From Pseudoalteromonas shioyasakiensis (GTDB lineage Bacteria > Pseudomonadota > Gammaproteobacteria > Enterobacterales > Alteromonadaceae): DNA of 64,000 nucleotides. The position numbers and the translations under genes are program-made. The notes under the pieces were generated by a model. That model saw only the letters and a list, made by a program, of their open reading frames with translations. It was not told where the DNA came from and did not search any database. Positions 48,926-52,025 of this stretch are shown here, one piece after another. The DNA is taken from assembly GCA_013391845.1 (NCBI GenBank), contig CP058414.1, forward strand, positions 2,528,501 through 2,592,500, read 5' to 3'. Position 1 is the first letter of the stretch; every line of letters begins with the position of its first letter.

Positions 48926-49008
48926 AAATTTAACTCACTATCACTTTATGCATGAGATTTTTTTAAAAGTCGTTTAATATAAATAAAAAAGCAGTGCAAG
49001 GACATGCT

Positions 49009-49428
49009 ATGTTCAATCAAACGCTCAGCGCCGAGCAACAGCATGTAAGTGATATTTTTATGCGCTTATGTAAGCTTTGTGAGGTGCAAAACAATGCTGA
49101 GTTAGAGCAACATTTATCGTTAACGCCTGGTTTTTGTGTGCAAAGTATCGAACTTGCTTCAGTGCCTTATCAATTGATTGATAAAATGGCTAAAGCTACG
49201 CAAGTTAGCTTTGATTCATTACTTAATGGTTACGAACATAAAACGCTCGCGCTCGATGGACCACTATTAGAAGCAGTTAGTAGCGGTATTATCAAGAGCA
49301 TAAAAAAGCTATCTATAGCTGGGTTAATTAAGGGTGATAATCAAACTCAAGAAGCACTTAGTCAACTTGCAGAAATTCAGCTTGAACAAATAGAAAAAGA
49401 GCTAAAAATACAAAGCCAGGTTAAATAA
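49009..49428 (+). CDS. Small protein with possible CI-repressor-like HTH
   Basis: 139 residues from ATG 49009 (AAGGAC at 48998-49003). The segment LCKLCEVQNNAELEQHLSLTPGFCVQSI (two overlapping parts, about 16-45) resembles the CI-repressor-type HTH seen in phage regulators. The C-terminal third is helical and rich in Gln/Leu/Glu. I do not recognise a full-length family. It follows the transporter gene by 83 bp and may be co-transcribed. Its stop codon lies inside the terminator stem. Confidence 0.55.
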   Translation: MFNQTLSAEQQHVSDIFMRLCKLCEVQNNAELEQHLSLTPGFCVQSIELASVPYQLIDKMAKATQVSFDSLLNGYEHKTLALDGPLLEAVSSGIIKSIKKLSIAGLIKGDNQTQEALSQLAEIQLEQIEKELKIQSQVK

Positions 49429-49441: not shown

Positions 49442-49822
49442 TTAATTCTTACCTTTGTACATTTTGTCGTAAATGTCGGAAATGTTGTTTTTCTCATCAT
49501 AGTATCGCTGTAACTCTCCAAGCGATAACTCCTTTAGGCTTTCACTATCAAAACCCATTGGCTCTACCAATTTAAAATGAGCTGCTGTTGGAGAATTTTC
49601 AATTAAAGCCGCAACCTCATTTTTTAATTCTTCAGCTTTATTAAATAGTTTAATTGCTTTGCTAATATCTGTTTCGTGCTCGGCTTGCAACGTGCACCAA
49701 ACCACCTCAACAGACTTTGACCTGATTTGATCTTCAAAGATATTCTTGCGCGCAATCAACCATGTACTTGCAATCAGCAAGATGGCTAAAACAGCAATGG
49801 CTATATAAATTAGTTCAAGCAT
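49442..49822 (-). CDS. Small single-pass membrane protein of unknown function
   Basis: 126 residues. One N-terminal TM helix (about 3-23), then a cytoplasmic or periplasmic helical domain rich in Glu/Lys. ATG 49822 has GAGGGA upstream. It overlaps the preceding membrane-protein gene by 8 bp, so the two are translationally coupled and probably act together. No family recognised. Confidence 0.65.
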   Translation of the reverse strand: MLELIYIAIAVLAILLIASTWLIARKNIFEDQIRSKSVEVVWCTLQAEHETDISKAIKLFNKAEELKNEVAALIENSPTAAHFKLVEPMGFDSESLKELSLGELQRYYDEKNNISDIYDKMYKGKN

Positions 49823-50399
49823 TACGATCCCTCGGTAAACTAAATGTTACTATACACCCAAACTTGGTCCGTAATACATCAGGAAAAAGCATTATAAATG
49901 ATAGTACAAGGCTGATATACAACACAATAAAGCTGTAAACATAATGTATCTGGGCAAATTCTTGCTGCAAATCCAGAACAACAAATTTCACCCAAATTAA
50001 AGAGTGGAATGCACTCAAGATCATGAACAGCTTAACTACAGCGAAAAAAAGTTTGGAAAAAACAAAACTAAAAACTAGGTGGGCCTTGTACATCAAAAAG
50101 AGAGTAACGAGGTTTATAATGGTAACAACAAGATAAATATTTTGTGCACTTGCTGCCGAACTATGATTGCTGACGTATGCTAATACATATTCCATTAGCA
50201 AAGCCGTAATCAAATAATTTGCACAAACAAAAGAAATGGTTACGAAATTACTAAAAAGCTCTTTATTAGCTAAGGCTTTTCTCAGTGAGTTTATCAGAGC
50301 GATAATAAAAGCTGTTGCAATTACAGCTTGAGAGGAAAAAGCTGTTGTGTATGGTTGAATTACCATCCACTTTTCATACAGGTTTTCAAAAAATTCCAC
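49815..50399 (-). CDS. Multi-pass membrane protein of unknown function
   Basis: 194 residues with about five hydrophobic segments (around 20-38, 47-68, 85-103, 105-127 and 150-172). The listed start is GTG 50399; ATG 50366 (MVIQPYTT) is an alternative, as neither has a strong ribosome-binding site. Coupled to the single-pass protein downstream. Upstream on the same strand are a terminator (50443-50466) and the repeat peptide gene, so expression may partly be read-through. I do not recognise a family. Confidence 0.65.
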   Translation of the reverse strand: MEFFENLYEKWMVIQPYTTAFSSQAVIATAFIIALINSLRKALANKELFSNFVTISFVCANYLITALLMEYVLAYVSNHSSAASAQNIYLVVTIINLVTLFLMYKAHLVFSFVFSKLFFAVVKLFMILSAFHSLIWVKFVVLDLQQEFAQIHYVYSFIVLYISLVLSFIMLFPDVLRTKFGCIVTFSLPRDRNA

Positions 50400-50442
50400 T
50401 TGGTCTAACCGTTTTTTAGATTCTATGCTAAACCCTAAAAGG

Positions 50443-50466
50443 AAAAAAAACCAGCTTAAAGCTGGC
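50443..50466 (-). terminator. Intrinsic terminator after the repeat-peptide gene
   Basis: CCAGC (50451-50455) pairs with GCTGG (50461-50465) around TTAAA. An A tract at 50443-50450 is the U tract on the minus strand. It follows the TAA at 50481-50483 and separates the peptide from the membrane-protein pair. Confidence 0.8.
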
Positions 50467-50480
50467 TTCTTTAGATTAAA

Positions 50481-50657
50481 TTAATTTTCTTTTTTCTTTG
50501 GATTCAAGATGATGATACCACCAGTATTATTTATAGTTTTCTTTTTTGGGTTTAGGATAATGATGCCACCAGTATTTTTAATTTGCTCAACTGAGTTGGT
50601 TGAAGCTGGTGCTGCGTCGAATGCTAAAGTAGATAGTAATAAAGCTGATAAAGTCAT
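50481..50657 (-). CDS. Putative secreted 58-residue repeat peptide (NTGGIIILNPKKK x2)
   Basis: ATG 50657 is preceded by AAGGAA at good spacing. The first roughly 17 residues are hydrophobic (MTLSALLLSTLAFDAAPA), compatible with a signal sequence although it lacks N-terminal positive charges. The mature part contains NTGGIIILNPKKK twice (residues 28-40 and 44-56), joined by TIN and ending in EN. Six of the 13 codons differ between the copies (GGC/GGT, ATT/ATC, CTA/TTG, AAC/AAT and two Lys), and all seven base changes are silent. That argues strongly for protein-level selection. It has its own terminator. No family recognised; a secreted signal or antimicrobial precursor is possible but unproven. 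Confidence 0.72.
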   Translation of the reverse strand: MTLSALLLSTLAFDAAPASTNSVEQIKNTGGIIILNPKKKTINNTGGIIILNPKKKEN

Positions 50658-51074
50658 TTTTTTGTTCCTTCATTGTTAAAGATAGTTTTCGCTAGCAAAT
50701 ACCGAGCCACTAAAATACAAATAAGGTAAAAACTAACGACTAGGCTCTATATAAGCATAAAATTAGGCTTTTAGGCCATTTTTTATACTAACCATGTATT
50801 TAAAACATACACTGAACAGCCTCGACACCTTTAGCCCTATAATCTAACAAGCCTCTATGCCATAATTCTGTTAATTCAAAAAATAAGTCAAAGCGGCCCG
50901 ACGCTTAGCAAGGTTTAATGCATGGCATATCCAGAACAACAGCAACCAACAATTTACTGGCACGACTATACGTAAAAACCAGTAACACGCTGATTTATAC
51001 GATTTTTAAATTTTGTTAAGAATAAATTTATACACGCAAATATACACACCGGCAATTTCTTACCACTAAGCTTT
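50658..51074. other. Intergenic region at the probable prophage left boundary
   Basis: 417 bp between the repeat peptide and the spike gene. It should contain the peptide promoter and perhaps the left attachment site. I see no tRNA remnant, integrase or clear direct repeat. Without the right end of the element, the junction cannot be located. Confidence 0.45.
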
Positions 51075-52025
51075 TTACTCCACTATCGGCTCTAATTTAC
51101 CTTTTAAGGTGCTTGCTTTCGTTTTATGGCTAGTGAATTCAACTTTTGTGATTGGTGGCCCTGCACCTGCGCTAGTATGACCGTGGTTTTCTAGGCTTTG
51201 GTTTATGTCTTTTACTAAGCCTATTAAATCAAGTAGCACTTGAGCCACATTGACTGAGCTATCCCCTAGCCACACTGTTTTACCCTCGACCTTGGCAAGT
51301 TCGCTTGCCTTGGCGTGTAGGTTCTTTAATGTTTTTAAGTTCATGCTTTCAGTGGCTTCAATATCCACCTGTTTCTTACTGCCAAGTAATAAACCCTCAA
51401 GTGCAACAATTAAGGCCTTTTCACCTACCACCGTTTTTAGTGCGCCCATCACTTCATTAATTTGGTTTCCATCTACCTTTGTAATGTCGTGGGTGTCTAT
51501 AGTGCAGGTTCGTTGATGGTATTTCTCGTCGCGGTTGCGCGATTCTATTTTACTGCTATCGCTTGTTTGCGTTATGTCACCATCTGTGGACAAATGCCAA
51601 TGGCCATCACGCCCCTGTATCTTACTGCGACTGTTTTGCTGTAGCGCAACGTCTGTGCGTTTGTGTTCTGGCACTAAGGATTGCCATGGCAACAAGCTTG
51701 TGATCACGGGGTGGCTATTTAAACCATCGATATATTGTATTAAACAATGCATACCAGGTGCAGGTTCGTTTAATAACCCATGATCCGGCGCTTGGCCTGT
51801 ACCAAGTGTAACTTGTTCAAATACGGGCACCGCTAATGGCTCACCTGTTTTAGGGTTCAACAATTGAACATCAGCGGCTTTGAGTGGTTTAAACGCGCTG
51901 CTTATCATTGCGGCATTAGGTAAATCATAAACACGTTCAATACGTGCAAGCTGTGGTAAATGCTTGCGTTGCCCAAGTTCAGGGAAGTATCGAAGTACTA
52001 AGCGCTTTATAGCGTTTTTGACCAT
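51075..52025 (-). CDS. Phage baseplate spike protein (gpV-like)
   Basis: 316 residues. An OB-like N-domain (about 25-125, LARIERVYDLPNAAMISS) precedes a beta-helical middle. The C-terminal segment ending in HGHTSAGAGPP closely resembles the HTH(x)GG repeats of gpV-type membrane-piercing spikes. It should form the trimeric needle tip at the end of the tail tube. It overlaps the hub gene by 19 bp. It is the last gene of the operon. Confidence 0.85.
   Translation of the reverse strand: MVKNAIKRLVLRYFPELGQRKHLPQLARIERVYDLPNAAMISSAFKPLKAADVQLLNPKTGEPLAVPVFEQVTLGTGQAPDHGLLNEPAPGMHCLIQYIDGLNSHPVITSLLPWQSLVPEHKRTDVALQQNSRSKIQGRDGHWHLSTDGDITQTSDSSKIESRNRDEKYHQRTCTIDTHDITKVDGNQINEVMGALKTVVGEKALIVALEGLLLGSKKQVDIEATESMNLKTLKNLHAKASELAKVEGKTVWLGDSSVNVAQVLLDLIGLVKDINQSLENHGHTSAGAGPPITKVEFTSHKTKASTLKGKLEPIVE

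Follow-up and report, generated by a model that had tools for sequence, protein, structure and literature searches.

We report that the 58-residue peptide encoded at 50481-50657 of a 64,000-nucleotide stretch of Pseudoalteromonas shioyasakiensis DNA (hereafter the window) belongs to a conserved four-gene module with the appearance of a hitherto undescribed bacterial system of signal and receptor, or of weapon and immunity. As judged by comparison of loci, the peptide is gene 1 of this module and is followed by a predicted five-helix membrane protein (fam1), an overlapping second gene (fam2) and a convergent gene for a regulator-like protein (fam3). The peptide and fam1 are very likely a cognate recognition pair. 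That the role of this pair is signaling has, in our judgment, an even chance of being right, and we give the same weight to the fuller reading of a polymorphic peptide signal acting with a cognate membrane receptor and regulator. The features of the window to which the analysis refers are these:

50922-50969, plus strand: start of the exonuclease I gene (sbcB), 16 codons separated from the rest by a prophage; NCBIfam name, taken from the L031 copy
50694-50709, minus strand: sigma-54-type promoter TGGCTCGGTATTTGCT (-24 GG / -12 GC), which begins 52 nt ahead of the peptide's ATG
50666-50671, minus strand: ribosome-binding site AAGGAA, read from the sequence
50481-50657, minus strand: peptide precursor gene, 58 aa; conserved leader (about residues 1-18) and two repeats
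50538-50576, minus strand: repeat 1, NTGGIIILNPKKK
50490-50528, minus strand: repeat 2, NTGGIIILNPKKK, with six silent codon differences from repeat 1
50444-50472, minus strand: private terminator (CCAGC...GCTGG, T-run)
49940-50600, minus strand: swapped cassette, approximate extent from sliding DNA identity, leader end to near the fam1 3' end
49815-50399, minus strand: gene 2 (fam1), 194 aa, predicted to span the membrane with five helices; candidate cognate partner of the peptide (receptor or immunity protein)
49442-49822, minus strand: gene 3 (fam2), 126 aa, with a single hydrophobic helix at the N terminus and an SLG(E)L motif conserved in the tail; helix and tail assigned by eye
48994-49428, plus strand: gene 4 (fam3), convergent CI-like HTH protein

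Composition, setting and expression signals of the module

The peptide gene on the minus strand is a real gene. A protein search with the window peptide returned 39 matches at E <=10, 38 of them below 1e-4, and the matches with an organism shown come from Pseudoalteromonas, except one labeled Pseudomonadota; frame-preserving homologs, on which an earlier note on this peptide had made its case depend, do exist. At all 13 loci first compared (the window and L031-L042), the peptide is followed by fam1 (about 194 aa), fam2 (about 126 aa) and a convergent fam3, and only these four genes are common to all 13. A scan of 108 genomes of the genus, one per species, found 18 peptide genes, 18 full-length fam1, 18 fam2 and 18 strong fam3 genes in the same 16 genomes, with two modules each in G057 and G059 (a peptide match in G132 was dropped); these loci are related, and the counts do not represent independent events. 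The predicted linkage of the peptide to both membrane proteins thus holds in 18/18 modules, and none of the 108 genomes carries a full-length main-clade fam1 without an adjoining peptide. Variable repeat number and linkage had been foreseen by the earlier note; the co-variation of the repeats, the cassette swap, the sigma-54-type promoter and the membership of fam3 had not.

The two membrane-protein genes are coupled, as had been proposed, by an 8 bp overlap (49815-50399 and 49442-49822). An AlphaFold2 model of fam1 has five long helices (mean pLDDT 81.8), and its structural matches were generic, with no informative fold among them; no Pfam family exceeded its cut-off (best E 0.032, in other family members), and no sequence relative was found in the PDB at E <=1. 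Charges suggest that fam1 has its N terminus outside and its C terminus inside. The most variable ten-residue blocks, the last four residues aside, are 11-20 and 71-80, both predicted to lie outside, and TM3 and the C terminus are variable too. The fam2 family keeps S-L-G-(E)-L in its tail and has no Pfam match above cut-off (best E 0.017). The CI-repressor HTH domain PF07022 was recognized in 4/13 fam3 members (best 3.5e-9), the window protein alone having no Pfam match, and the fam3 profile matches PDB entry 2fjr, 'Repressor protein CI', at E 5e-4. The true start of the window fam3 is more likely the ATG at 49009, giving 139 aa. In L031, L033, L034, L036, L037 and L041 the open frame extends back into the transporter gene, and the start is likely an internal ATG (MFNQTLS...), as at 49009. 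A dyad with exact arms, AACTTAC-ATTTT-GTAAGTT or nearly so, lies upstream of fam3 in L035, L038, L039, L042, L057 and L064, with an imperfect version, seen by eye, in L060, L061, L063 and L066, and most mobile copies also have an GTCGGTTACTATA-like element there; an operator, a bidirectional terminator or a promoter are possible identities for these elements.

Two distant modules, both reached by the fam1 profile, extend the family. The L090 peptide (65 aa) begins with MK in a signal-like manner and has four repeats (NTGGGVII, GSGGGVIL, GSGGIVIT, NSGGGVII); it is followed by fam1 and then by a fam2-like protein with the SLGEL motif that is fused to an AraC-type HTH domain (35.1 bits against a Pfam cut-off of 33.6); no fam3-like open reading frame was seen downstream within the bases covered. 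In L091 the peptide has 46 aa, again a signal-like start (MK) and a single repeat, and it precedes fam1, fam2 and a CI-type fam3 (PF07022, 31.7 bits against a cut-off of 22). The variable repeat number that had been anticipated is therefore found, at one, two or four copies across the family.

Chromosomal and mobile settings were both encountered. An exonuclease I gene lies nearby at 8/13 loci, plus the window, and a bicarbonate-transporter-like gene (Sbt_1) adjoins the module at nine loci, where the contig reaches that far. An integrase lies beside the module in L035 and L042. In L038, L039 and most viral contigs the module is flanked by a serine-recombinase/invertase-like gene on one side and a ParA-like gene on the other, and the neighbors in L066 include repressor, anti-repressor and PmgS-like genes, which points to phage-plasmids; the mobile carriers are probably elements of this kind. 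In the integrase-flanked L059 and L065, the module is followed by two more conserved genes, whose small products (182-194 and 114 aa) look membrane-like by eye; these genes are absent from the other contexts compared.

The prophage boundary placed beside the window copy was also confirmed: a baseplate gene ends at 51075 and a remnant of the start of sbcB lies at 50922-50969. The remainder of the exonuclease I gene, from residue 8 onward, is a 510-aa open frame at G000:C1:2617832-2619253, about 38.4 kb away; a prophage of about 38 kb interrupts this gene at its 5' end. Its proximity to the module looks incidental, because at 8/13 loci that side is occupied by the exonuclease I gene, and the window's phage genes are seen at none of the eight. 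On the viral contig L058, related baseplate genes end beside a peptide of the same family, so the insertion site may be used repeatedly.

For the analysis of individual genes, 24 modules were extracted from the loci by motif and retained if they differed in the gene or in the next 600 bases; several of their features were read by eye. The sigma-54 promoter consensus is TGGCAC-N5-TTGCW. The pattern TGGC-N7-TTGC occurs upstream of the ATG in 21/24 modules, L061, L063 and L066 have TGGCACGAACCCTGCT (CTGC) just upstream, by eye, and the motif is present in both distant modules, bringing sigma-54-type motifs to 26/26 modules, three of them by eye. The window's own genome has 28 occurrences of TGGCNCNNNNNTTGCW and 8 of the reversed control pattern, and it has one match to PF04552 (sigma-54) and 17 to PF00158 (activator), 13 of them strong. 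Inspection by eye of the 130 nt upstream revealed no motif common to chromosomal and mobile copies that could be an upstream activator site. At about 50760-50790 in the window, a terminator-like hairpin lies upstream of the putative promoter, its stem sequence varying among chromosomal copies, and in these copies it is followed by a conserved TTTTATGCTTATATAG-like stretch; neither was seen in mobile copies (all by eye).

The ribosome-binding site and the private terminator that had been described from the window hold up. AAGGAA is present at 50666-50671, and AAGG[AG] is found within 20 nt of the ATG in 24/24 modules. The terminator lies at 50444-50472, and CCAGC/GCTGG with a T-run follows the stop codon in 21 of the 23 modules with downstream DNA, L007 and L008 having other stems; at the same position the distant L091 has a hairpin of different sequence and L090 none that could be seen by eye. 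Given its own terminator, the peptide gene probably has a private transcript, with fam1-fam2 reached by read-through.

Silent divergence and co-variation of the two repeats

The peptide reads MTLSALLLSTLAFDAAPASTNSVEQIK-NTGGIIILNPKKK-TIN-NTGGIIILNPKKK-EN (58 aa, translation of 50481-50657), and the repeat unit of the family is [L/I]x[N/G][S/T]GGI[I/V]I with a basic tail. In an alignment of 38 rows (A1: the window and P0002-P0038, with the near-identical P0001 and the weak P0039 excluded) both repeat cores are kept in 35; the second repeat of P0034 is broken and the sequence stops there, and P0037 and P0038, both on short contigs, have one repeat each, which may reflect assembly collapse. Recounting reproduced the oddity first described in the window: its two 13-residue repeats are identical in protein and differ at 6 of 13 codons through 7 base changes, all synonymous. 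When seven random changes were simulated, none of 200,000 trials that weighted all base changes equally preserved the 13-mer protein; with a transition bias the fraction that did so was about 3.5e-5.

This silent-only divergence is general among the related genes as compared here. Over a 12-codon core in 23 genes (L058 was omitted, its repeats being those of L034), repeats within one gene have a pS of 0.68 and a pN of 0.029, whereas repeats of different genes have a pS of 0.70-0.75 and a pN of 0.205-0.227. Silent sites within a gene are thus near saturation, and the within-gene contrast of pS and pN supports the strong selection on the peptide that had been proposed.

The repeats also vary together. 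Among the 16 unique pairs in the 24 modules, repeat 1 and repeat 2 agree at 11.44 of 12 residues within a protein versus 8.21 across proteins, a match reached by 0 of 20,000 shuffles. Positions 1 and 2 (N/G and S/T) match in 16/16 pairs, against expectations of 12.3 and 8.7. In a stricter, collapsed set of 19 genes, 219/228 residues are alike between the repeats, again with 0/20,000 shuffles as extreme. Sharing of the same codon within genes is in slight excess (0.50 vs 0.42 expected; 464/20,000 shuffles, 19-gene set), and in L066 (8001-8168) the repeat cores differ by 1 base of 36; both point to occasional copying between repeats. We read L066 as an allele with a recent repeat-to-repeat copying event and gene conversion as a contributor at times. 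Since silent divergence within genes is close to that between genes, conversion is rare and long-term identity needs selection: on this comparison, it is the protein on which selection keeps the repeats identical, and alleles change both repeats at once.

Exchange of the repeat region together with fam1

DNA identity along pairs of modules falls where the repeats and fam1 lie. In four chromosomal pairs (L034/L041, L034/L037, L031/L041 and L031/L037) identity drops to about 40-77% across the repeats and fam1 only (less at gaps), and the flanks are mostly above 90%; the dip starts at the end of the leader and recovers near the end of fam1. The pair L036/L037 is reversed, with a cassette at 90-100% and a backbone at 70-98%. 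Pairs with the window have the same dip in flanks of only 67-100%, so the exchange borders of the window itself are less sharp.

Repeat distance follows fam1 distance (Mantel r 0.38, p 0.0004, 23 modules; r 0.60, p 0.0004, nine chromosomal modules) and not fam2 distance (r 0.03 in both sets). Over the 23 modules fam1 correlates with fam2 at r 0.44 and with the leader at r 0.56, as shared descent would give; over the nine chromosomal modules the values are 0.18 (p 0.24) and 0.77. N-type repeats occur with one fam1 clade in 5/5 modules and G-type repeats with other clades in 18/18. The mapping of peptide type to fam1 is not strict, as two comparisons illustrate: between the window and L033 the repeats are 92% and the fam1 proteins 44% identical, and L042 shares its 12-residue repeats with the window, its fam1 being 69% identical to that of the window.

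Remnants of earlier alleles mark the junction. Between their own fam1 and fam2, 10/23 modules carry a 3'-end remnant of a window-type (W-type) fam1, e.g., ...LFPDVLRTKFGCIVTFSLPRDRNA, and in the genus scan W-type 3' fragments lie at 10/18 modules. Such a remnant is the scar of a replacement. Taken together, these comparisons indicate that the repeat region and fam1 are a swappable cassette on an otherwise constant module.

Signaling and its alternatives

In the reading we prefer, the gene would specify, in precursor form, a small recognition peptide that is exported and holds two copies of its message. A sigma-54-dependent promoter and the gene's own terminator would allow the peptide to exceed the products of the genes behind it, the leader would bring it to or across the inner membrane, and its repeat unit, once processed, would be recognized by the adjoining five-helix fam1. 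From fam1 the signal would pass to the one-helix fam2 with its SLGEL tail and on to a DNA-binding regulator, namely a separate CI-like fam3 in most modules and an AraC-type domain fused to fam2 in the distant one. The exchanged repeat and fam1 alleles would form one specificity cassette on a constant chassis (promoter, leader, fam2, fam3), so that peptide types would differ among strains and phage-plasmids, much as they do in the pheromone systems of Gram-positive bacteria. We propose that a shared partner, which each repeat has to fit, keeps the two identical; a substitution in either would eventually be followed by its counterpart in the other, with silent sites free to diverge. Neither a kinase nor a protease nor an exporter was recognized in the module. 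The signal-like N terminus claimed for the peptide stands in part: a hydrophobic core and an AxA-like end are present, but none of the 38 aligned rows or 24 modules has K/R within the first 12 residues. Export is plausible, if uncertain given that leaders of the window clade are without a positive n-region.

The main rival to signaling is a peptide toxin with its immunity protein, a reading we regard as unlikely. The exported peptide would harm neighbors that have no matching fam1, the immunity protein, and phage-plasmids and chromosomes would keep different alleles as weapons. Polymorphic toxin-immunity pairs likewise show cassette exchange and left-behind 3' ends, which the W-type fam1 remnants resemble, and a small basic peptide adjoining a polytopic membrane protein and carried on mobile elements fits this picture as well. 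Orphan immunity genes are common in toxin-immunity systems, however, and the orphan full-length main-clade fam1 that they would lead one to expect is absent from the 108 genomes. No dedicated exporter was recognized by Pfam among the four genes at 13/13 loci, and the exact two-copy architecture of the peptide is untypical of bacteriocins. The resemblance to bacteriocins or microcins with immunity, a small basic peptide with a leader beside a membrane protein and exchange of alleles, is further weakened by the GG motif, which lies inside the repeat and not at the end of the leader. A regulator accompanies 18/18 genus modules and is fused to the conserved membrane partner in L090, and it is this tie of a DNA-binding regulator to fam2 in two ways, as fam3 or as an AraC fusion, that leads us to prefer signaling. 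As between the secreted signal and the bacteriocin-like precursor that the earlier note had both suggested, the regulator and the AraC fusion tilt the balance toward the former. Nothing in these sequence comparisons spoke for the amyloid-like peptide that the earlier note had listed as a third possibility.

A distinctly unlikely possibility is that the peptide is a structural or regulatory subunit that stays in the producer's inner membrane within a fam1-fam2 complex, so that co-variation reflects subunit fit. The strict 1:1:1:1 linkage of the genes would agree with this, and the positive-inside rule would favor a basic tail that stays inside, as the hydrophobic segment has no K/R ahead of it. 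Against it, a membrane span would normally be longer than the hydrophobic segment, which has about 11 residues, both distant relatives have signal-like MK starts, and the allelic diversity with its sharp exchange borders exceeds what subunit fit seems to need.

Even less probable is a phage moron or a defense or superinfection-exclusion module under sigma-54 stress control, with the peptide as effector. In its favor are the presence of the module on probable phage-plasmids with ParA-like and repressor genes and beside an integrase, and the CI-like regulator. Yet 0/4 window proteins match PADLOC at E <=0.1, none has a PHROGs match better than E 0.04 (a fam3 relative in L066 matches a repressor family at 1.6e-4), and a common chromosomal home is beside the exonuclease I gene. 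The fam3 HTH domain is like that of phage CI repressors (PF07022; PDB 2fjr), but fam3 is convergent within a chromosomal or mobile module, and the chromosomal copies lie apart from a phage immunity locus. Concerted evolution by itself, in which gene conversion explains repeat identity and matching copies are unnecessary, was already disfavored and can be set aside as extremely improbable, since, L066 and the slight codon excess notwithstanding, silent divergence within a gene nearly equals that between genes.

The signaling reading has parallels among known peptide pheromones. Agr-type pheromone loci have a hypervariable signal and an adjoining receptor part inside a more conserved locus, and the receptors of the RRNPPA family are cytosolic proteins of Bacillota. 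For the ComQXPA locus of Bacillus, PMC6334282 describes comQ, comX and the 5' end of comP as hypervariable within a conserved locus. The module resembles both ComQXPA and Agr in having a hypervariable peptide-fam1 cassette in conserved flanks, fam1 being the presumed receptor. Unlike them, it is Gram-negative, its candidate receptor is a whole five-helix protein with no recognized catalytic domain, and no histidine kinase, prenyl transferase or AgrB-like protease was recognized in it. With Rap-Phr and other RRNPPA systems it shares several copies of a repeated unit in a putative propeptide, horizontal transfer and carriage by phages. Some Phr pheromones have identical repeats according to PMC5199041, and for the set treated in PMC11343458 only pseudo-repeats, which are non-identical, are reported. 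In the module the two copies are kept identical or nearly so in the alleles compared, and its adjoining genes encode membrane-type proteins without a Pfam match above cut-off in place of a cytosolic tetratricopeptide-type receptor. The module would work like ComQXPA and Rap-Phr and is filed with neither, because it does not have their defining receptor features.

A leader and a GSG-containing motif also recall the heterocyst inhibitors PatX and PatS, whose motif is RGSGR. The module peptides are without RGSGR and have different neighbors, and the NCBIfam PatX model (NF047413) matched 6/38 peptides insignificantly (best E 0.022) and the window peptide not at all.

Most known cases of quorum sensing by secreted peptides are Gram-positive. 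In the present case the evolution of the sequences, taken by itself, points to a Gram-negative pair of peptide and partner that recognize each other and exchange alleles, in a setting of marine bacteria and probable phage-plasmids. The repeats are an unusual natural experiment, in which silent sites tell age and amino-acid identity tells that both copies must match. More tentatively, and with some doubt, we suggest that the module could be a new Gram-negative peptide pheromone system, comprising a sigma-54-controlled multi-copy propeptide, a five-helix non-kinase receptor, an adaptor and a CI- or AraC-type regulator, whose signal-receptor types move between chromosomes and phage-plasmids and would let lineages of hosts and of phage-plasmids each sense their own kind. 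If this pheromone reading is true, the module would be a Gram-negative counterpart, in function and not by descent, to Rap-Phr and arbitrium communication.
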